Source of the DNA: Bacillales bacterium
GTDB lineage: Bacteria > Bacillota > Bacilli > Bacillales > DASSOY01
NCBI GenBank assembly: GCA_035700025.1
Contig: DASSOY010000048.1
Location: 136,484 to 200,483 of the forward strand
Direction: 5' to 3'
Length of the DNA stretch: 64,000 nt
The notes beneath the pieces are model-generated. The model was not told where the DNA came from, did not search any database, and was given only the letters and a program-made list of their open reading frames with translations. Below, one piece after another: positions 1,537 to 52,710 of the stretch. Each line of letters opens with the position of its first letter. Position 1 is the first letter of the stretch. Made by a program: the position numbers and the translations under genes.

Positions 1537-1574
1537 AGTCGGAAATAAATCGACGATTGGGGTGGATTTTGCTT

Positions 1575-2213
1575 ATGGGGCGCGAGTTTGTCGAGTTGTT
1601 CGATGAGTGGGCAGAAAGCTATGATGAGACAGTGTCCAGTCGGGAAAATGAATATCACGAGGTGTTCGAGCACTATGATGAAATTTTGGCGGAGGTTGTG
1701 CGCTGCGCGGAAGGAACGGTGCTCGAATTCGGTGTCGGAACCGGGAATTTAACGGAAAAATTGCTTAAGGCAGGACACCGGGTCATCGGGATCGAGCCGT
1801 CCCCAATGATGAGGAAGAAAGCACAGAATCGGTTGCCGGGCTTGAAGCTTTTCGACGGGGACTTTCTTCATTATCCCGCACTGGATGAACCGATTGACAC
1901 GATCGTCAGCACGTATGCCTTTCATCATTTAACCGACAGCGAGAAACAGACGGCTGTCCGTCGTTATGGAAAGCAGTTGCCGAAAGGTGGTAAAATTGTA
2001 TTTGCGGATACGGTTTTCGATAACGAAAATGCGAAATTGGCGCTTTTTGAACGAGTGAAGCAACAAAACTACCTCCGCTTGCTGCACGATTTGCAAACGG
2101 AATATTATACGTTCCGTCAAGCTTTGGAGGAGATCTTTACGGCGAGCGGTTTTGCTGTGCAGTTCACTCGGTTGAACCGCTACGTTTCGTTAATGGAAGC
2201 CGAGAAAAAGTAA
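1575..2213 (+). CDS. yrrT: SAM-dependent methyltransferase YrrT
   Basis: A 212-residue class I methyltransferase. The SAM-binding motif I is seen as VLEFGVGTGNLTEKLL, with the acidic residue of motif II in GIEPSPMM and motif III in FADTVF. The start MGREF at 1575 follows a GGGGTGG sequence and matches the start I recall for B. subtilis YrrT; a TTG at 1557 would add six residues. The substrate is unknown. It is the first gene of the yrrT-mtnN-luxS-mccA-mccB unit, so it probably belongs to SAM recycling. Confidence 0.92.
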   Translation: MGREFVELFDEWAESYDETVSSRENEYHEVFEHYDEILAEVVRCAEGTVLEFGVGTGNLTEKLLKAGHRVIGIEPSPMMRKKAQNRLPGLKLFDGDFLHYPALDEPIDTIVSTYAFHHLTDSEKQTAVRRYGKQLPKGGKIVFADTVFDNENAKLALFERVKQQNYLRLLHDLQTEYYTFRQALEEIFTASGFAVQFTRLNRYVSLMEAEKK

Positions 2214-2239
2214 CGGGTGGATAAAGGGAGGACCTTCGG

Positions 2240-2944
2240 ATGACGATTGGCATCATTGGAGCGATGGACGAAGAAATCGAAGGCTTGAAAACAGCCATTG
2301 GCGATTATACGGAACAAACGGCTGGAGGTTGTTTATTTATAAAAGGAGAACTGCAAGGCAAACCGGTCGTCGTCGTCAAATCAGGCATCGGCAAGGTGAA
2401 CGCCGCGATCGCAACGACGATGCTCATTCAAAAATTTGAACCGCAGCTCCTTATTAACACGGGATCTGCTGGGGGCTTCCATGAAGAGTTAAAAGTCGGT
2501 GATATTGTGATTTCTACGGAAGTTCGTTACCATGATGTTGATGCGACTATTTTCGGCTATGAATACGGTCAAGTGCCGGGAATGACCGCTTCCTTCACAG
2601 CGGATCGCGAATTAATCGAAACAGCTGTGACGGCTGCTCAGAAAATTCCGAATGTCCGTGTCGAAAAAGGGCTGATCGTCTCCGGTGATTCATTCATGAA
2701 CGATCAGGCACGCGTCGATTTCGTCAACAGCAAGTTCAAGCGGTTGTTGGCCGCCGAGATGGAAGCGGCGGCGATTGCACATACGTGTTCGCGCTTTGAC
2801 GTGCCTTTCGTGGTCATTCGTTCCTTGTCCGATATTGCCGGAAAAGAATCGAACGTGTCTTTCGAACAATTTTTACCGACGGCTGCTCGTCATTCGAATG
2901 CGGTCATTCAAAACATGCTTAAGGAGTTGAAAGTTCATGCCTGA
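2240..2944 (+). CDS. mtnN: 5'-methylthioadenosine/S-adenosylhomocysteine nucleosidase
   Basis: A 234-residue nucleosidase that removes adenine from S-adenosylhomocysteine and methylthioadenosine. The family N-terminus ([17 protein letters not shown]), NTGSAGG phosphate-side loop, and the MEAAAIAH and RSLSDIAG motifs with catalytic Glu and Asp are present. It has a good GGGAGG ribosome binding site. Its last 8 bases overlap the start of luxS, so the two are translationally coupled. The product S-ribosylhomocysteine is the substrate of LuxS, the next gene. Confidence 0.97.
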
Positions 2945-3404
2945 AAAAATGAATGTTGAAAGTTTCAACCTCGATCATACGAAAGTAAAAGCTCCGTATG
3001 TAAGACTTGTCGGTGTAACTGAAGGTCACCACGGGGACAAAGTGTACAAATACGATATTCGTTTCTGCCAGCCGAACAAAGAACACATGGATATGCCGGG
3101 GCTGCATTCCATCGAACATTTAATGGCGGAAAACATTCGCAATCATATCGATAACGTTCTTGATATCGGCCCGATGGGTTGTCAAACGGGATTTTACTTT
3201 TCCATCCTCAACAATGACAATTACGAAGAAACGGTGGAAGCGATTGAAAAAACACTGAACGACGTGCTCAAAGCGGATGAGGTGCCGGCTTGCAACCCCG
3301 TGCAATGCGGTTGGGCGGAAAATCACAGTCTTGAAGGGGCTAAGGAGATTGCTAGAAAGATGCTTGCCAAAAAAGATGAGTGGCAAGAAGTCTTTGCCGA
3401 ATAA
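2937..3404 (+). CDS. luxS: S-ribosylhomocysteine lyase (autoinducer-2 synthase)
   Basis: A 155-residue metalloenzyme that splits S-ribosylhomocysteine into homocysteine and DPD, the precursor of autoinducer 2. The metal-binding HxxEH motif is HSIEH (residues 57-61), the conserved Cys is in GCQTGFY, and the third metal ligand is the Cys of QCGW near residue 128. Length is normal for LuxS. It overlaps mtnN by 8 bases and is followed by mccA after 18 bases. In B. subtilis luxS is at another locus; here it joins the two halves of the homocysteine-to-cysteine pathway. Confidence 0.98.
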
Positions 3405-3422
3405 AACAAAGAGGTCGAGAAC

Positions 3423-4346
3423 ATGGAATATTACCGGAACGTTCATGAATTGATCGGCAATACGCCGCTTTTGGAAATTTCGCAGTTTCCGATGCCGGAA
3501 GGCGTTCGCCTGTTCGCGAAGTTGGAGTCTTTCAATCCCGGCGGCAGTATCAAAGACCGTCTCGGGATGGAATTGTTGGAAGAAGCGCTTCGCACCGGCA
3601 AACTGCAAGAAGGCGGTACGATTGTTGAGCCTACGGCGGGAAACACCGGCATCGGTTTGGCGCTTGCGGCCGTCAACCGCGGATTTCGCGTCATTTTTTG
3701 CGTGCCCGAACAATTCAGTGTTGAAAAACAAATGTTAATGCAGGCGCTCGGTGCCGAAATTGTTCATACGCCGACCCAGGAAGGGATGCGCGGCGCGATT
3801 CGCAAGGCGAAGGCACTCGTTTCTGAGATTCCGGGTGCGTATTATCCAGAGCAATTCGGAAACCCGGCGAATCCTGAGACGTACTACAAGACGTTAGGTC
3901 CGGAAATCTGGCGGCAGACGGATGGGACCCTCGACGTTTTTGTTGCAGGAGCGGGAACGGGCGGCACGTTTATGGGTACGGCGAAATATTTGAAAGAGAA
4001 AAACCCGAAGGTGAAAACGGTCATTGTCGAGCCGGAAGGATCCGTCATTAAAGGCGGTGAGCCGGGACCTCACAAAACGGAAGGAATCGGCATGGAGTTT
4101 TTGCCTGACTATATGGACCGTTCGTATTTTGATGAAATTCATACGATCACGGACCAACGGGCCTTTCAACGAGTTCGCGAGTTGGCGGAACAAGTCGGCA
4201 TTCTTGCCGGGAGTTCGTCTGGAGCGGCATTGGAAGCATCGTTACTGGAAGCTTCTAAGGCGCGCGGAAAGACAACGATCGTAACCATTTTCGCCGATTC
4301 GAGCGAACGATATTTGAGCAAAAAGATTTACGAAGGAGTGGAGTGA
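3423..4346 (+). CDS. mccA: O-acetylserine-dependent cystathionine beta-synthase
   Basis: A 307-residue PLP enzyme of the CysK family. The PLP lysine is in PGGSIKDR (Lys44), TAGNTGIG binds the substrate carboxylate, and GTGGT binds the PLP phosphate. By order and family it is the B. subtilis YrhA/MccA type, which condenses O-acetylserine with homocysteine to cystathionine. The start ATG follows an AAAGAGG sequence. Its stop codon overlaps the GTG start of mccB, the enzyme that uses the product. Confidence 0.93.
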   Translation: MEYYRNVHELIGNTPLLEISQFPMPEGVRLFAKLESFNPGGSIKDRLGMELLEEALRTGKLQEGGTIVEPTAGNTGIGLALAAVNRGFRVIFCVPEQFSVEKQMLMQALGAEIVHTPTQEGMRGAIRKAKALVSEIPGAYYPEQFGNPANPETYYKTLGPEIWRQTDGTLDVFVAGAGTGGTFMGTAKYLKEKNPKVKTVIVEPEGSVIKGGEPGPHKTEGIGMEFLPDYMDRSYFDEIHTITDQRAFQRVRELAEQVGILAGSSSGAALEASLLEASKARGKTTIVTIFADSSERYLSKKIYEGVE

Positions 4347-5482
4347 GTTTGCGCAAAAAAACGCAAATGATTCACGGAGGGATCAATGGAGATGAACAGA
4401 CAGGCGCGGTGTCCGTCCCGATTTATCAAGTAAGCACGTTCGAAGAAGACGCTCCGGGGAAACATCGCGGTTACGAATATTCCCGCAGCGGAAATCCGAC
4501 GCGTCATGCGTTGGAAGAATTGATCAAGGATCTTGAACACGGCGAAGCAGGGTTGGCGTTCGCTTCCGGGATGGCGGCGATCACGGCGGTCATGACACTG
4601 TTTAACAGCGGGGATCACATCGTAATGACTGATGACGTGTATGGTGGAACGTATCGTGTGATGACGAAGGTGTTGAACCGCCTCGGCATTGATTCTGTGT
4701 TCGTTGATACGAGTCGGCCGGAAAACATTGAACAGGCGATTCAAGAAAATACAAAGGCTGTTTACGTCGAAACGCCGACGAATCCGTTGTTAAAGATCAC
4801 GGATTTGCGGAGAGCTTCCGAAATAGCGAAAGCTCACGATTTGTTGTTGATCGTCGATAACACTTTCAATACCCCGTATTGGCAAAATCCGATCAATCAC
4901 GGAGCTGACATCGTCATCCACAGCGCGACGAAGTATCTCGGCGGCCACAGCGATGTCGTAGCCGGTGCTGTTGTCGTCAATTCGAAGGAGCTTGCCGAAG
5001 AACTGTATTTTATACAAAATTCTACTGGCGGCGTCCTCGGACCGCAAGACTCGTGGCTGCTCATGAGAGGCATCAAGACGCTTGCGCTCCGCATGGAAGA
5101 GCATGAGAAAAATGCGGCGAAAATCGTTGATTTTCTTCTCCGGCATGAGCAAGTGGAGAAAATTTATTATCCCGGTCTTGAAACGCATCCGGGCCATGAC
5201 GTCGCGAAGCGGCAAGGGAGCGGCTTTGGCGCGATGATTTCCTTTGACGTCGGCAGCAAGGAGAAGGCTGCCGAAATCCTTTCGAAAGTGAACTATTTCA
5301 CGTTGGCTGAGAGTCTTGGTGCGGTGGAAAGCCTCATTTCCGTCCCCGCGCAAATGACACATGCCTCGATTCCGAAGGATCGCAGGGATGAGCTTGGCGT
5401 GACGGAAGGATTGATTCGCGTATCTGTCGGGCTTGAAGACGTCGAAGATTTATTGGAAGACTTGCAGCAGGCACTCGCTTAA
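4343..5482 (+). CDS. mccB: Cystathionine gamma-lyase / homocysteine gamma-lyase
   Basis: A 379-residue PLP enzyme of the Cys/Met metabolism family that cleaves cystathionine to cysteine, ammonia and 2-oxobutyrate. The PLP lysine is in HSATKYLGGHSD near residue 195, and the substrate-loop motif YEYSRSGNPT is near residue 45. It starts with GTG overlapping the mccA stop. It ends the reverse transsulfuration route from homocysteine made by LuxS. Confidence 0.95.
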   Translation: MSLRKKTQMIHGGINGDEQTGAVSVPIYQVSTFEEDAPGKHRGYEYSRSGNPTRHALEELIKDLEHGEAGLAFASGMAAITAVMTLFNSGDHIVMTDDVYGGTYRVMTKVLNRLGIDSVFVDTSRPENIEQAIQENTKAVYVETPTNPLLKITDLRRASEIAKAHDLLLIVDNTFNTPYWQNPINHGADIVIHSATKYLGGHSDVVAGAVVVNSKELAEELYFIQNSTGGVLGPQDSWLLMRGIKTLALRMEEHEKNAAKIVDFLLRHEQVEKIYYPGLETHPGHDVAKRQGSGFGAMISFDVGSKEKAAEILSKVNYFTLAESLGAVESLISVPAQMTHASIPKDRRDELGVTEGLIRVSVGLEDVEDLLEDLQQALA

Positions 5483-6460: not shown

Positions 6461-6527
6461 AAAAAAATAAAGGTACAGACACGACCGAGCTTCCGCCCAC
6501 ATAGGGATGATTAACGGAGGTGAGGTC

Positions 6528-7244
6528 GTGACTGGCATGATCACAGCCATCGCTTACTTTTTCAAAGAAGTGATGGTTTTTGTGTCTTACGTAAAAAACA
6601 ACGCATTTCCGCAGCCGCTTTCGAATGAGGAAGAGAAAAAGTATTTAAGAAGGTTGGAAGAAGGAGACGAGGAAGCGAGGAACATTTTAATCGAACATAA
6701 TTTGCGTTTGGTCGCTCACATCGTTAAGAAATTCGAGAATACGGGCGAAGATACGGAAGATCTCATATCCATCGGAACGATCGGCTTGATCAAAGGGATT
6801 GAAAGTTATTCACGCGGGAAAGGGACGAAATTGGCGACATATGCGGCCCGTTGTATCGAAAATGAGATTTTGATGCATTTGCGCGCGATGAAAAAGACGA
6901 AAAAAGACGTGTCGCTGCAAGACCCGATTGGTCAAGACAAAGAAGGCAATGAAATCACGTTGATTGACGTTTTAAAAGCGGATAACGACGACATCGTGGA
7001 ACTTATTCAACTGAACATGGAAAAGCGGAAAATTTACGAATTTATTCACATTCTCGACGAACGCGAGCGCCAAGTGGTCGTTGCTCGATTCGGCCTCGAC
7101 AGCCATAAAGAACGGACACAGCGGGAAATTGCAAAGGAATTGCAAATTTCGCGCAGTTACGTTTCTCGCATTGAAAAACGGGCATTGCTGAAGCTGTTCC
7201 ATGAGTTTTATAAAAATCGCGAGCCCAAGCGAAAGGCGGATTGA
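6528..7244 (+). CDS. sigK: RNA polymerase sporulation sigma factor, pro-sigma-K, uninterrupted
   Basis: Late mother-cell sigma factor, 238 residues. The N-terminal pro-sequence ([19 protein letters not shown]) ends at the [13 protein letters not shown] block where SpoIVFB cleaves in B. subtilis. Regions 2 ([33 protein letters not shown]) and 4 ([24 protein letters not shown]) are complete. The GTG start at 6528 is preferred because GGAGG lies seven bases upstream; an ATG at 6507 would add residues without such a site. The frame runs straight through the ENEI-LMHLR join where the skin element splits the B. subtilis gene, so no excision is needed. Confidence 0.96.
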
Positions 7245-7278: not shown

Positions 7279-7307
7279 TTGACAAAACGTCGCGTCTTGC
7301 CTATAAT
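7279..7307 (+). promoter_or_regulatory. Consensus sigma-A promoter ahead of the SAM riboswitch
   Basis: A perfect TTGACA, 17-base spacer and perfect TATAAT. Transcription would start near 7314, 25 bases before the aptamer. Confidence 0.92.
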
Positions 7308-7339
7308 CAAGAATAATTTACAACTTCAAATTGTTTGAA

Positions 7340-7492
7340 CTCTTATCACGAGCAGGTGGAGGGAATTGGCCCGATGAAGCCCGGCAACCGACCTATTAGG
7401 TACGGTGCTACATCCAACAGGCATGTTTTGCCTGAAAGATAAGAGGTGGAGATTCGATCTTTCAACCTCTTTCTTTCGAAAGAGGTTTTTTT
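7340..7492 (+). ncRNA. SAM-I (S-box) riboswitch with terminator
   Basis: The aptamer runs 7340-7445. P1 is CTCTTATC with GATAAGAG, and the hallmark S-box segments ATCACGAGCAGGTGGAGGGA and GATGAAGCCCGGCAACC are present. A terminator (AACCTCTTTC/GAAAGAGGTT then a T-run, 7464-7492) follows. The 3' strand of P1 (AAGAGGT) can instead pair with AACCTCTT of the terminator, which gives an antiterminator. High SAM should therefore switch the downstream molybdoenzyme gene off, as known for the class. Confidence 0.97.
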
Positions 7493-7524
7493 CATGTTGA
7501 GAAATTCGAAAGGAGCACCCATGC

Positions 7525-8196
7525 ATGTCAACAAAAGCTGAACGCATTAAAAGGGCAAAACTTCCTCCCCGCACTTCCGAACACGGGAACCGGCTCCCAC
7601 CCGGCCAAGTCTTGACGGAGAGATTTCCGATTCTTCACGTCGGCGACGTTCCTGTATATGATCCGATTGACAAGTGGGATTTACAAGTGTTTGGGGCGGT
7701 GGAACAACCTAGACGGTTTCGTTTCAACGATCTCTTGGCGATGCCGCAACGGAAAATCACTTGCGATATTCATTGCGTGACGCGGTGGTCCAAATTCGAC
7801 AACGTTTTTGAAGGCATTCCTTTCCGAACGTTTATGGAATCCTTTGCGGTTCGTCCCGAAGCTACGCATGTCATTGTGCATGGAGATTATGACTATGAAA
7901 CGAATGTGCCGCTTGAGGATTTGTTAAATGACAACGTATTGCTTGCTCATTCTTATAACGGCCATCCATTAACGGAAAAACACGGTTTTCCGCTCCGGTT
8001 AATCGTTCCGCATCTGTATTTTTGGAAAAGTGCCAAGTGGCTGCGCGGTTTTGAATTCGTGAACGAAGATCGTAACGGGTATTGGGAAAGAAACGGTTTT
8101 CATCATTATGGCGACCCGTTTCGGGAACAAAGATTTTCCGATGAAGAATTGGAGATGCCGGAAGACGGCTGGAAAGAAAAAGAGTATGACGAGTAA
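7525..8196 (+). CDS. Sulfite-oxidase-fold molybdopterin oxidoreductase (YuiH-like), SAM-riboswitch controlled
   Basis: A 223-residue cytoplasmic protein with the oxidoreductase molybdopterin-binding domain. The likely molybdenum ligand is the Cys in CDIHCVTRWSKFD (near residue 83), and GYTTN-like family features appear as HSYNGHPLTEKHGFPLRLIVPHLY and KWLRGFEF. There is no Tat signal, haem domain or membrane anchor, so the electron donor is unknown. The fold includes sulfite oxidase and the methionine-sulfoxide reductase catalytic subunit MsrP. Control by a SAM riboswitch suggests a role in sulfur or methionine supply, which is inference. ATG at 7525 has AAAGGAG nine bases upstream. Confidence 0.88.
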   Translation: MSTKAERIKRAKLPPRTSEHGNRLPPGQVLTERFPILHVGDVPVYDPIDKWDLQVFGAVEQPRRFRFNDLLAMPQRKITCDIHCVTRWSKFDNVFEGIPFRTFMESFAVRPEATHVIVHGDYDYETNVPLEDLLNDNVLLAHSYNGHPLTEKHGFPLRLIVPHLYFWKSAKWLRGFEFVNEDRNGYWERNGFHHYGDPFREQRFSDEELEMPEDGWKEKEYDE

Positions 8197-8230
8197 CCAT
8201 TCTTGGATGACTACGAAAGGATCGATGGCT

Positions 8231-9397
8231 ATGAGTCCGGTGATCGTAACGGGATGGCGAACGCCGTTTGGAAAATGGAAGGGGAATTTGGCCGATTTGT
8301 CGGCAAAGGAATTGGGAACGCATGTCGTCCAAGAATTGCTTAAATCCGTGCCGGAAGCAAAACAGGCGGACGGCGTCATTCTTGCGGAAGTGATCCAGGC
8401 CGGGCAAGGACAAAATCCGGCAAGACAGGTGGCGGCGGAAGCCGGCGTCTCCCTTTCGACGCCGGCGATCACGCTCAATAATGTTTGCCTCGGCGGGCTC
8501 GCTTCGGCAGCCGATGCGTCGAGACGCATTGTTACAGGGGAGGGCGAACTTTTCATTACCGGCGGGTTCGATTCGATGACGAATGCGCCTTACACGGCAC
8601 CATTCCGACATGAACTTGGCTTCGGAGCTGTCGAAATGACGGACACGCTCTTTCATGATGGTCTTCGCTGCGCTTTGACCAACGATTCAATGGGCGTATT
8701 GTCGGATCGTAAAAATCGTGAATTACGAATTGACCGTGAAGCGCAAGATGCTTACGCGCAACGATCGCAAGCAAGAGCATCGGAAGCCGAAAGGAACGGA
8801 AAGTTAAGCAAGGAGATTGCACCAATCCATCACGGCGCCCAACGGTTCACGAAAGATGAAGGGATCCGGCACGATAGTTCTTTAGGCAAGTTGGCCGGTT
8901 TACGTCCTGCTTTCTCAAAAGACGGGACGATCACAGCGGGAAACGCGTCGCAAATGAGCGATGGGGCGAGTGCCGGGATCATTGCCTCCGAAGTCACAGC
9001 ACATCGAATCGGCAAAGAGCCGCTAGCGCGCATTCTGGGTTGGGCGGAAGTTGCCGGTCCAGATGCGAGCCTGCATTTAAAACCGGCGCACGTGATCCGG
9101 AAATTGCTTGATTTAAAGCGGATGCGTATCGAGGACATTGATTTATTCGAAATCAATGAAGCTTTTGCGAGTGTCGTGATCGCCAGCATCCGTGAACTTG
9201 GTTTGCAAAACGACAAAGTCAATGTGAACGGCGGTGCGATCGCGATCGGTCATCCGCTCGCGGGGACCGGCTTCCGCTTGCTTCTGACGCTCGCTCACGA
9301 GTTGAAACGCAGGGGCGGGGGAAAAGGAATTGCCTCGTTATGCGGCGGAGGCGGGCAAGGAACGGCCGTATTGATCGAAGTGCCGTCCAACTGGTGA
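8231..9397 (+). CDS. Thiolase family protein (acetyl-CoA acyltransferase-like)
   Basis: A 388-residue thiolase. The nucleophile region is NNVCLGGLASA with Cys86, differing from the usual CxSG or CGSG; NEAFA, the His of IAIGHPLAGTG and the second Cys of SLCGGGGQG are all there. So the catalytic triad is intact but the loop after the nucleophile is unusual. The start at 8231 has AAAGGA nine bases upstream; ATG 8225 is also possible. It follows the molybdoenzyme gene by 34 bases and is probably in the same riboswitch-controlled transcript. The substrate is unknown. Confidence 0.9.
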   Translation: MSPVIVTGWRTPFGKWKGNLADLSAKELGTHVVQELLKSVPEAKQADGVILAEVIQAGQGQNPARQVAAEAGVSLSTPAITLNNVCLGGLASAADASRRIVTGEGELFITGGFDSMTNAPYTAPFRHELGFGAVEMTDTLFHDGLRCALTNDSMGVLSDRKNRELRIDREAQDAYAQRSQARASEAERNGKLSKEIAPIHHGAQRFTKDEGIRHDSSLGKLAGLRPAFSKDGTITAGNASQMSDGASAGIIASEVTAHRIGKEPLARILGWAEVAGPDASLHLKPAHVIRKLLDLKRMRIEDIDLFEINEAFASVVIASIRELGLQNDKVNVNGGAIAIGHPLAGTGFRLLLTLAHELKRRGGGKGIASLCGGGGQGTAVLIEVPSNW

Positions 9398-9401
9398 ATC
9401 G

Positions 9402-9436
9402 CTTGAGGAACTTTCGCTTTCGAAAGGATCTTCAAG
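9402..9436 (+). other. Hairpin between thiolase and symporter genes
   Basis: CTTGAGGA...TCTTCAAG with an inner CTTTCG/CGAAAG stem and CTTT loop gives a long imperfect hairpin. No T-run follows, so it may be an RNA-processing or stability element rather than a terminator. Confidence 0.5.
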
Positions 9437-9474
9437 TAGAAATAAATAGCTAAATTAAAGGAGTGGGAGAAACG

Positions 9475-9573
9475 ATGTTTGTTACTTATTTTGCATGTAT
9501 TGCCCTGTTTTGGATTTTCGGATTGATCTTATGGAACACCTTGTATCCGAGCGAAAAAGGAGGGCGAAGCTAA
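9475..9573 (+). CDS. 32-residue membrane peptide, symporter small accessory protein
   Basis: A single-helix membrane peptide (MFVTYFACIALFWIFGLILW at its start, then a short polar tail). AAAGGAGTGGGAG gives a ribosome binding site ten bases upstream. Its stop codon overlaps the start of the symporter gene (TAATG), so the two are coupled. Small single-helix partners encoded just before sodium:solute symporter genes are a known pattern; the exact role is not established here. Confidence 0.75.
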   Translation: MFVTYFACIALFWIFGLILWNTLYPSEKGGRS

Positions 9574-11078
9574 TGGAAGTTTTGTCAGGTACGGTTTTAT
9601 GGGTCATCGTATTTTTGCTCGTGGCTTACTTTTTGCTCGTCACGTGGATCGGGCGAAAAGGGGTTCGTTTCAGCAAATCGATGAACGGATTCGCAACCGC
9701 AAGGGGAAGCGTTCATCCGTGGATCGTAGGTGCCAGTTTCGCGGCAACGTACGCTAGTGCCAATTTGTTTATCGGAATCCCGGGACTTGCCTATCAATAC
9801 GGGACTTCGGTGCTTTGGTATACGTTAGGCTGTTTCGGCGTTTCATGGATCGGTTTGTTGTTATTCGCGAAAACGTTCTGGCGCTACGGAAAACAATTCG
9901 GACGCGTATCAACATTGCCCGAATGGCTCGGCAAAAGATACAACAGCAAAACTTTGCAAGTGCTCGTTTCGTTGCTCGTGTTGTTTAACGTTTATTATAT
10001 CGTCGGACAAAACGTTGGATTGGCCACGATCTTTGGCACGGTCATCGGCATTCCGTATGTTTGGGGAATCATCATTGCCGTGGTGATCACGATCCTCTAC
10101 ATCGGTTTGGGCGGCGCCTACGCACAATTGATTACCGACGGGTTGCAAGGGATCATGATGGCCGTCACTTCCGTTTTTATTTTGTTGTCCTTGTTGTGGA
10201 CGATCGGAGGCGGATTCCACGTATTCGGTACGTTGAACGACAAACTAGCGTCGATCGATCCCGGCTTAACCGCTCCGATTGCCTCCGTTGGTCCGTACAA
10301 CAGTGCTCTAGCAATTGCCGCCGTTCAATTTTTGCTGTTTGGATTCGTGCTCATGCCGCATTTGCTTAATAAAATTTTATCACTGGAAACGGAAGAACAA
10401 TTGCGCCCGTTCACGATTTCGTCCGGAGTATTTCTATGTTTGGTGTCCACGTTAACAGTTATCGGCGGTTTGGCTGCCCGCGTCGTTTTTCCGGCGTTGG
10501 AAAACGCGGACCAGGCGATTCCCGCCTATTTGTTTGAAGCATTCCCTCCGGTGGTTGCCGCATTTTTTATCGTCGGCATTATTTCGGCAGTCTTGTCGAG
10601 TACGGACAGTTTATATCTCGGTATCATATCCAGCATTGGCAACGATCTATACCGCACCATAGCTGCTTCGATTTCGAAGAGGGCATGGAATGATCCGGTT
10701 TATGACGACCGATCGGTGAAAGTCGCGAAAGGTTCTTTGTTCGTTGTCGGTTTTCTGACGTTGTATTTTTCACTGCAGCGACCTGAGTCGTTGTCGCTTT
10801 TAATTCAATTCAGCTTTTCGGCGATCATCAGCGGGATCTTCGCACCGATTACGTTAGGTTATTTATGGAACAGATCCAATTCCATTGGCGCGATCGCTTC
10901 AGTGATCACCGGAACGTCGTTATATGTTGGATTCACTTCCTCTGCGATCATCGACAACATTTATCTGGCCATGTTTGCAAGCTCTGCTGCAGGGTTTGCG
11001 GTGATGGTCGGTGCCGGGCTGCTATTTGCACAGGACGAAAGGCAAAAACAAATCTTTTTATTGAAAAAATCCGTCTAA
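9573..11078 (+). CDS. Sodium:solute symporter family transporter
   Basis: A 501-residue SSS-family permease with about 13 membrane helices. Family features include the GASFAATYASANLFIGIPGLAYQYG region in helices 1-2, GLGGAYAQLITDGLQG in helix 5-6 and SAVLSSTDSLYLG near residue 350, where the Na+ site serines lie. AAAGGAGGGCG precedes the ATG. The substrate cannot be read from the sequence. Its place in a SAM-riboswitch gene run suggests a sulfur compound or a precursor of methionine, which is inference. Confidence 0.92.
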   Translation: MEVLSGTVLWVIVFLLVAYFLLVTWIGRKGVRFSKSMNGFATARGSVHPWIVGASFAATYASANLFIGIPGLAYQYGTSVLWYTLGCFGVSWIGLLLFAKTFWRYGKQFGRVSTLPEWLGKRYNSKTLQVLVSLLVLFNVYYIVGQNVGLATIFGTVIGIPYVWGIIIAVVITILYIGLGGAYAQLITDGLQGIMMAVTSVFILLSLLWTIGGGFHVFGTLNDKLASIDPGLTAPIASVGPYNSALAIAAVQFLLFGFVLMPHLLNKILSLETEEQLRPFTISSGVFLCLVSTLTVIGGLAARVVFPALENADQAIPAYLFEAFPPVVAAFFIVGIISAVLSSTDSLYLGIISSIGNDLYRTIAASISKRAWNDPVYDDRSVKVAKGSLFVVGFLTLYFSLQRPESLSLLIQFSFSAIISGIFAPITLGYLWNRSNSIGAIASVITGTSLYVGFTSSAIIDNIYLAMFASSAAGFAVMVGAGLLFAQDERQKQIFLLKKSV

Positions 11079-11104
11079 CAGTCGGAACAGGAGGTGACCA
11101 AGTC

Positions 11105-12268
11105 ATGCCGAACTTGACGCAAACAATAGCTGAAAATTTAGGAAAATGGATGCAAAAGGCGGAACAATTGGCGGATTTGTTCGCCGAACGCTCGGCGGAC
11201 ATCGATCGGGAAGGTCGGTTTCCCTTTGATAATTTCTCCGATTTGAAAACGGCGGGTTTTTTGTCCTTAACGGTACCTGCGGAGTATGGGGGCGAAGGAT
11301 TAAACTTATACGAATTCGTCATGTTGCAAGAACAATTGGCGAAAGGTGACGCGGCGACGGCATTGTCTTTAGGTTGGCACTTGGGAAGTTTGTTGGAATT
11401 GTCGGAAAATCGTCCCTGGGATGAAAAAGTTTTTCGCTCATTGTGTCTGAAAGTCGTAGAAGAACAAGTCTTGATCAACCGAGCGGCGACGGAGCCGGCG
11501 ACGGGAAGCCCGACCAGAGGCGGCATGCCGCAAACGACCGCGGTGAGAAAAGGGGAACATTGGTTGGTATCGGGTCGAAAGTCATTCACTTCGATGGCAG
11601 AGGCGCTCGATTACAGCCTCGTCACGGCGAGAATCGAAAACACGTCCCGCAAAGGTATCTTTTTGATTGATCACAAGTTGCCGGGCGTAGAAATTGAAAA
11701 AAGCTGGGATACGATTTCGATGCGGGGGACGCGAAGCGATGACCTTGTCTTGAACGATGTCCGCGCAGAAACTTCCGCATTGGTAGAAGAGGAAGGCGAT
11801 CAAACGAATTATACTTACCCGAAGGCGTGGTTGCTGCATATTCCTGCTTGCTACTTGGGGATTGCCGCAGCAGCTCGTGATTATGCGGTCGCCTTTGCCA
11901 AACAATACCGACCGAACAGCCTTCCGGGGCCGATTAAAGAGGTTCCCGAGGTCCAACGAAAAACCGGTGAAATGGAACTGGAGTTGTATAAGGCAAGAGA
12001 GATTCTCCATGCTGCGGCAAGACGGTGGGTCGGTGAACGTGAGAAACGAAAAGAAATGGGTCCGGAACTCGGAGCGGTAAAGCATATCGTGACGAACTGC
12101 GCAAATCGCGTCGTCGACCTGGCGATGCGCATTACGGGAGCGAGAAGTTTAACACGAAGCAATCCATTGCAGCAATATTACCGCGACGTGAGAGCCGGGC
12201 TCCATAATCCGCCGATGGATGATTCGGTGGTCGCGGTTCTTGCCAAACGAGCCTTCGAACAGGAATAA
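11105..12268 (+). CDS. Acyl-CoA dehydrogenase-like flavoprotein
   Basis: A 387-residue protein of the acyl-CoA dehydrogenase fold, with N-terminal helical domain (YGGEGLNLYEFVMLQEQLAKGD), middle beta domain (NRAATEPATGSP, SGRKSFTSMA) and C-terminal helical domain (MRITGARSL). The C-terminal EGT motif that carries the catalytic Glu in most family members is replaced by YYRDVRAGLHNPPMDD. That resembles the flavin monooxygenase branch (SfnC/DszC-like) or a diverged YdbM type. ACAGGAGGTGACC precedes the ATG at 11105. It ends the SAM-riboswitch gene run, 26 bases behind the symporter. Confidence 0.85.
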   Translation: MPNLTQTIAENLGKWMQKAEQLADLFAERSADIDREGRFPFDNFSDLKTAGFLSLTVPAEYGGEGLNLYEFVMLQEQLAKGDAATALSLGWHLGSLLELSENRPWDEKVFRSLCLKVVEEQVLINRAATEPATGSPTRGGMPQTTAVRKGEHWLVSGRKSFTSMAEALDYSLVTARIENTSRKGIFLIDHKLPGVEIEKSWDTISMRGTRSDDLVLNDVRAETSALVEEEGDQTNYTYPKAWLLHIPACYLGIAAAARDYAVAFAKQYRPNSLPGPIKEVPEVQRKTGEMELELYKAREILHAAARRWVGEREKRKEMGPELGAVKHIVTNCANRVVDLAMRITGARSLTRSNPLQQYYRDVRAGLHNPPMDDSVVAVLAKRAFEQE

Positions 12269-12322: not shown

Positions 12323-12357
12323 AAAAAACGCATAGGAATGGTTCCCATGCGTTTTTT
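12323..12357. terminator. Bidirectional terminator
   Basis: AAAAAACGCATAGGAA pairs with TTCCCATGCGTTTTTT. With A- and T-runs on both sides it can stop transcription of the plus-strand operon and of the minus-strand transporter gene. Confidence 0.85.
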
Positions 12358-12405
12358 CTTTTTATCGGCTGCTTGAAGGGTATAATCGGCGTAGACTTTG
12401 AATCT

Positions 12406-52478: not shown

Positions 52479-52710
52479 ACAACAAATGCATAACGATCAT
52501 GCCGTGAAGGAAAACAGTATTTGCAGTTAAGGTATCAAAGCGAATCCCGGTCGGTGAAAGCGGGGTATACAAACTGTGAAGAAGGCATTCCGAAGCATGT
52601 TGCGATTGAAAGTGATCTCTTCTTCTCAAAATGAAGAGGTAATTAGGGTGGAACCGCGGGTACAACTCTCGTCCCTACGCTGCAAGAGCCGGCGTGGACG
52701 GGGTTTTTTT
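52479..52710 (+). ncRNA. T-box riboswitch for glycyl-tRNA
   Basis: The T-box antiterminator sequence TTAGGGTGGAACCGCGGG is at 52643-52660. The terminator CGTCCCTACGC/GCGTGGACGG with a T-run is at 52670-52710. Stem I carries GGTGAA, and the specifier is most likely GGC (Gly) at 52584-52586. Uncharged tRNA-Gly should allow read-through into glyQS. Confidence 0.95.

Follow-up and report, generated by a model that had tools for sequence, protein, structure and literature searches.

A SAM-I riboswitch, a small membrane peptide and a sodium:solute symporter as the conserved core of a likely organosulfur-acid scavenging operon in Bacilli

The S-box regulon of Bacillales, controlled by SAM-I riboswitches that respond to S-adenosylmethionine (SAM), is known for its methionine and cysteine enzymes, and it has been stated in general terms that Bacillales genes of unknown function under SAM-I control probably serve cysteine/methionine metabolism or transport (PMC3766115); leaders with two SAM-I copies are likewise known as a class (PMC9481103). 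A precedent from Ca. Pelagibacter is a SAM-riboswitch-controlled MetY fed by methanethiol (PMC5069961). In the present study, we analysed 64,000 nucleotides (nt) of the draft genome of a Bacillales bacterium (assembly GCA_035700025.1, contig DASSOY010000048.1, positions 136,484 to 200,483; hereafter the window), in which a SAM-I leader precedes five genes, encoding a molybdoenzyme (MOLY), a thiolase (THIO), a 32-residue membrane peptide, a sodium:solute symporter (SSS) and an acyl-CoA-dehydrogenase-fold flavoprotein (ACD1; CoA, coenzyme A). This operon has the SAM-I leader and terminator of the S-box regulon and stands in the same regulon as the metNIQ-type and metY/metX genes of its genome, but its five gene families are not among the listed methionine/cysteine enzymes. 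The individual families are known; the combined unit was not found described in the open-access papers searched, and the main S-box survey (Rodionov 2004) lay outside that search, so an earlier mention is possible.

In its logic the operon resembles the demethiolation of dimethylsulfoniopropionate by DmdB-DmdC-DmdD, which likewise joins import of an acid, CoA-type chemistry, a flavoprotein and delivery of reduced sulfur to MetY (PMC7157515, PMC5069961). It differs from that system in that none of its five genes has a crotonase-type hydratase (DmdD/AcuH) domain or encodes an acyl-CoA ligase, and in that a thiolase and a molybdoenzyme are added; moreover, DmdABC of Pelagibacter are not SAM-regulated, whereas in the window operon the uptake and breakdown genes probably are. 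The acyl-CoA dehydrogenase fold has its own precedents in sulfur acquisition, namely DszC, SfnB, methanesulfinate monooxygenase and the YdbM-like flavoproteins of B. subtilis, where ydbM belongs to the CymR regulon (PMC2743287). We consider it fairly probable that the window operon is a SAM-I-controlled operon for the scavenging of organosulfur acids. Its features are the following:

7279-7307, plus strand: sigma-70-type promoter TTGACA-17-TATAAT, 12/12 consensus match
7340-7445, plus strand: SAM-I (S-box) riboswitch aptamer, RF00162, 87.2 bits, model 1-108 complete
7464-7492, plus strand: intrinsic terminator of the riboswitch (expression platform), 10-pair stem, then T run
7525-8196, plus strand: MOLY, cytoplasmic sulfite-oxidase-fold molybdoenzyme, 223 amino acids, PF00174 (Oxidored_molyb) 147 bits
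8225-9397, plus strand: THIO, thiolase, 390 amino acids, Thiolase_N/C; start inferred via a ribosome-binding-like site
9475-9573, plus strand: 32-residue membrane peptide, present ahead of the symporter at 51 of 53 loci
9573-11078, plus strand: SSS, sodium:solute symporter (SSF), 501 amino acids, PF00474 171 bits
11105-12268, plus strand: ACD1, acyl-CoA-dehydrogenase-fold flavoprotein by Pfam, 387 amino acids, with a monooxygenase-like C-terminus
12323-12362, plus strand: probable operon terminator, a hairpin and T run 3' of the last gene, read by eye and absent from the consensus-scan list

The aptamer lies well above the RF00162 gathering score of 44.4 bits and reaches 86 bits with a model built from the riboswitches of this operon family, and the leader folds more stably than shuffled sequences (z -2.7). 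No other perfect promoter occurs in the region. The gaps between the genes are, in order, 28, 77, -1 and 26 nt, the stop codon of the small peptide overlapping the start of SSS (TAATG). The original prediction, made from the sequence of this stretch, had described a perfect promoter and a full SAM-I riboswitch before five closely spaced plus-strand genes, none of them a classical methionine enzyme, and all of this holds. The hairpin at 9402-9436, which it had named as a place where the transcript might end, lacks a T run, and the consensus scan does not list it among the terminator-like sites.

In a survey of 397 genomes of the window's order, to which Halobacillus also belongs, 19 carried the symporter at E <= 1e-120, and SAM-I precedes the operon in every one of them. 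A broad scan of 84,980 species genomes yielded 55 loci (numbered with the prefix L below), 53 of which hold a symporter of the window's family. All are from Bacilli, many of them halophilic, including Halobacillus, Gracilibacillus, Lentibacillus, Aquibacillus, Sediminibacillus, Oceanobacillus, Salinicoccus, Fictibacillus, Thalassobacillus, Salimicrobium, Ammoniphilus, Planococcus and others; a plasmid search gave no match to the operon. SAM-I stands at 51 of the 53 symporter loci, in one or two copies and as a tandem pair at 25, and was not found at L143, where the contig ends, or at L128 of Oceanobacillus rekensis. At the latter, no SAM-I or other Rfam element was found upstream of position 8593, despite a THIO-SSS-AACS-SCP2-DUF35 operon. 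With only three SAM-I elements found in the window's 2.84-Mb draft genome and recurrence with the symporter at 51 of 53 loci, the riboswitch ahead of this operon is more than chance.

The conserved core is the SAM-I riboswitch, the small peptide and the symporter, around which the enzyme sets are exchanged. Hence the earlier idea of one SAM-controlled unit stands in part: the gene order does exist in relatives, being the same in Halobacillus hunanensis (L097) and, in L096 and L138, enlarged by an acyl-CoA synthetase. What is conserved, however, is not the set of five genes as such, whose enzymes vary from locus to locus. The same comparison bears on the explanation that the riboswitch governs the first genes only, symporter and flavoprotein being a separate unit placed there by accident. 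Such a split would find room in the 77-nt gap and its weak hairpin 5' of the small peptide, but that gap contains no terminator-like site, in L132, L135, L136 and L137 a SAM-I lies directly 5' of the symporter, in L095 one separates the symporter from MOLY, and L097 repeats the identical order; we regard it as highly improbable.

Symporters of the SSS type may have small accessory subunits, as in PanF-YhdT and ActP-YjcH, in which a small hydrophobic protein is likewise encoded immediately before the symporter. The window-type peptides differ from these in being only about 27-36 residues long, and the window copy, which contains one hydrophobic stretch, has no Pfam or NCBIfam match. A peptide of 27-36 residues precedes the symporter in 51 of the 53 loci, with alignment scores of 34-113 against a 95th percentile of 28 for random positions, and it is probably an accessory subunit of the symporter. 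For SSS itself the best specific model is the pantothenate symporter PanF, whose equivalog cut-off it does not reach (163 vs 328 bits).

The enzymes around this core come in several architectures. The first, MOLY-THIO-peptide-SSS-ACD1, is that of the window and of L097, with the acyl-CoA synthetase added in the two loci named above; MOLY and SSS stand without other enzymes in L095 and L114. In L095, from Aquibacillus rhizosphaerae, one SAM-I (8606-8711) precedes MOLY and a second (9484-9600) lies between MOLY and the symporter. The second architecture, THIO-synthetase-SSS-ACD1, occurs in Fictibacillus (L118, L121, L123), and the symporter tree groups these loci with the window (support 99/96), although the window's branch is long. 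The third and commonest, 36 of the 54 tree rows, places THIO and an acetoacetate-CoA-ligase-type enzyme around SSS, the latter above the acetoacetate-CoA ligase cut-off (705 vs 521 bits), and usually adds two further proteins. These had been taken for a dehydrogenase and a hydratase; by their sequences and Pfam, however, one is a thiolase-like protein of the SCP2 type and the other has the OB fold of ChsH2/DUF35. In the fourth (L132, L135, L136, L146), SSS is accompanied by a flavin mononucleotide (FMN) monooxygenase closest to LadA and to dimethyl-sulfide monooxygenase (DmoA). At L130 the gene of this FMN monooxygenase points away from SSS, and the gene after SSS encodes a CoA-acylating methylmalonate-semialdehyde dehydrogenase (607 bits against a cut-off of 448.5), an enzyme that suits malonate-semialdehyde-like remnants of a 3-thiopropionate. 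Substrates may therefore differ between lineages, the acetoacetate-ligase/thiolase sets fitting a beta-keto acid.

This last point leads to the explanation that the operon handles a sulfur-free beta-keto or short-chain acid, whose acetyl-CoA would feed the acetylation of homoserine by MetX, so that SAM would tune the carbon side of methionine synthesis. The ligase score of the commonest variant, the presence of a thiolase in nearly all CoA-type variants and the SAM-I control of MetX in the window genome all speak for it; yet no acetyl-CoA would come from those variants in which the transporter has a DmoA/LadA-like monooxygenase or MOLY as its sole enzyme partner, and acetyl-CoA is not an expected limiting metabolite for methionine. 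We judge it unlikely.

Among the enzymes of the window operon, THIO exceeds the cut-off of TIGR01930, the acetyl-CoA C-acyltransferase subfamily (402 vs 240.6 bits), with its catalytic Cys-His-Cys motifs (NNVC, GHP, CGGGG) intact. The closest solved chains to ACD1 are 5gj7/5z8t, followed by nitrososynthases intermixed with dehydrogenases; the open-access literature on 5GJ7/5Z8T and on yuiH yielded nothing useful. The part of ACD1 that aligns with butyryl-CoA and medium-chain dehydrogenases stops at residue 363, but with nitrososynthases, DszC and methanesulfinate monooxygenase it extends to 370-372, across the motif HNPP. From this, ACD1 may be a flavin-dependent monooxygenase rather than a dehydrogenase; it stays far below the equivalog cut-offs of both SfnB (93.7 vs 430.9 bits) and DszC (68.4 vs 850 bits). 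An identification with YdbM through its neighbourhood was dropped, as the loci examined did not show the expected ydb region.

MOLY, with orthologs in L095, L096, L097 and L138, has its Cys84 aligned with the Cys region of plant sulfite oxidase, and no signal peptide was seen in its sequence. It falls far below the equivalog cut-offs of the sulfite dehydrogenases SoxC (58 vs 420 bits), SorA (42 vs 600) and SorT (32 vs 570) as well as of MsrP (57.1 vs 207 bits). These values bear on two further explanations. If the substrate were a sulfonate or sulfinate, its desulfonation would give sulfite, the surplus of which MOLY would oxidise to sulfate, in keeping with the sulfite-oxidase fold and its conserved Cys, with the ACD1 alignments to methanesulfinate monooxygenase and DszC across the C-terminal motif, and with the SsuA-type ATP-binding cassette genes found in L093 and L114. 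Against this stand the distance of MOLY from the sulfite dehydrogenase cut-offs and the absence of a molybdoenzyme from most variants, and oxidising sulfite would waste sulfur just when SAM is low; we consider it quite unlikely. Because sulfite oxidation during sulfur shortage would be wasteful, our preferred guess for MOLY is the reduction of the substrate in an S-oxide form. Alternatively, the symporter could import methionine sulfoxide or its keto analogue for reduction by MOLY, the thiolase and flavoprotein serving another acid. The distant MsrP match and the pairing of MOLY with SSS alone in L095 agree with such a salvage, but the MsrP cut-off is far off, a signal peptide was not seen, and the other partners of the transporter are CoA enzymes and a monooxygenase; its probability is small as well, no greater than that of the sulfonate route.

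The methionine and sulfur genes of related loci speak for organosulfur scavenging. In L043 and L044, thiolase-synthetase-ACD1 operons behind SAM-I end with a gene for a MetQ-type lipoprotein; in L050 and L051, SAM-I-ACD1 is divergent from SAM-I followed by monooxygenase and metNIQ-type genes; and in L052 a SAM-I, a monooxygenase, a MetQ-type gene and ACD1 follow one another on a single strand. At L114 of Ammoniphilus, SAM-I-MetY adjoins SAM-I-MOLY-SSS. The second SAM-I of the window genome precedes a metN-type transporter gene, and the third an operon of MetY, SsuA-like/permease/ATPase genes, MetX and homoserine dehydrogenase (hom). The MetY (O-acetylhomoserine sulfhydrylase) encoded behind SAM-I at L093:6259-8052 (contig C24 of the window's genome) and at L114:7010-8809 is fused to a C-terminal CoA_binding_2 domain. 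That a sulfur compound is taken up and then oxidised or reduced, as originally predicted, is in line with the MetY, the MetQ/MetNIQ types and the DmoA-like monooxygenase of related loci.

In the window genome, which is 97.7% complete, family searches with positive controls gave no match to PF01717 (MetE) or to PF02574 (MetH, BhmT and MmuM types). The genome does encode MetY and MetX, and MetY with methanethiol would be one route to methionine besides import. We rejected the idea that the operon is driven by a loss of methionine synthase, the association not being significant at the first cut-offs. A stricter cut-off, chosen after seeing the E-values, gave 10 of 19 carriers against 86 of 378 others lacking both enzyme types (P = 0.006) and is not relied on. 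Because that cut-off was post hoc and the genomes are related, we hold the association unproven.

We propose the following scheme for organosulfur-acid scavenging, in which we infer the substrate class (e.g., 3-methylthiopropionate or its S-oxide), each of the reactions and the methanethiol step. At low SAM the leader would fail to terminate, and read-through would express the operon. A sulfur-containing carboxylate would enter through the sodium symporter, assisted by the 32-residue peptide as its probable accessory subunit, and the enzymes would oxidise it, oxygenation and/or CoA-dependent cleavage cutting the carbon chain and the C-S bond. Reduced sulfur would be released, most economically as methanethiol, and would reach methionine through the SAM-I-controlled MetY encoded elsewhere in the window genome; this passage of methanethiol to MetY, taken alone, we consider less likely than not.

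Several observations weigh against this scheme. The commonest variant has no oxidase, and its enzymes point to a beta-keto acid rather than to a plain thioether acid. The acyl-CoA ligase that the window operon lacks is present in L096, L138 and L118, and a search for a SAM-controlled acyl-CoA synthetase elsewhere in its genome led only to a 45% homolog, which has an HMG-CoA-lyase-like gene as its neighbour. Attempts to read the function from family models got no further than the SSF domain and the broad subfamily of thiolases, and no enzyme of the set attained a substrate-specific model. Finally, several carriers possess MetE or MetH, and the first cut-offs show both MetE and the MetH/S-methyltransferase type to be lacking in 7 of 19 carriers, against 81 of 378 other genomes (Fisher P = 0.15).

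Elsewhere in the window, an uninterrupted sigK gene (6507-7244) ends 34 nt 5' of the operon promoter, and just upstream of sigK and the SAM-I operon lies, as read from the sequence, a yrrT-mtnN-mccA-mccB-type block (1557-5482), with a luxS-type gene between mtnN and mccA. A T-box leader (52495-52679; 93.6 bits, barely above the gathering score) precedes glyQ/glyS-looking genes.

In its fullest form, the proposal is of an undescribed SAM-gated pathway of mostly halophilic Bacilli that converts an imported methylthio or methylsulfinyl carboxylate to methanethiol, replacing methionine synthase in a genome that lacks both MetE and MetH, with a new symporter subunit of ~32 residues and interchangeable enzyme sets; in all its parts together this is rather doubtful. 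If true, SAM riboswitches would govern, beyond methionine synthesis and uptake, an operon dedicated to organosulfur-acid breakdown in many halophilic Bacilli; a first function would fall to a cytoplasmic molybdoenzyme of the sulfite-oxidase fold, to a small and new subunit of the symporter and to an orphan family of flavoproteins; and a route to methionine would be suggested for an organism without methionine synthase.

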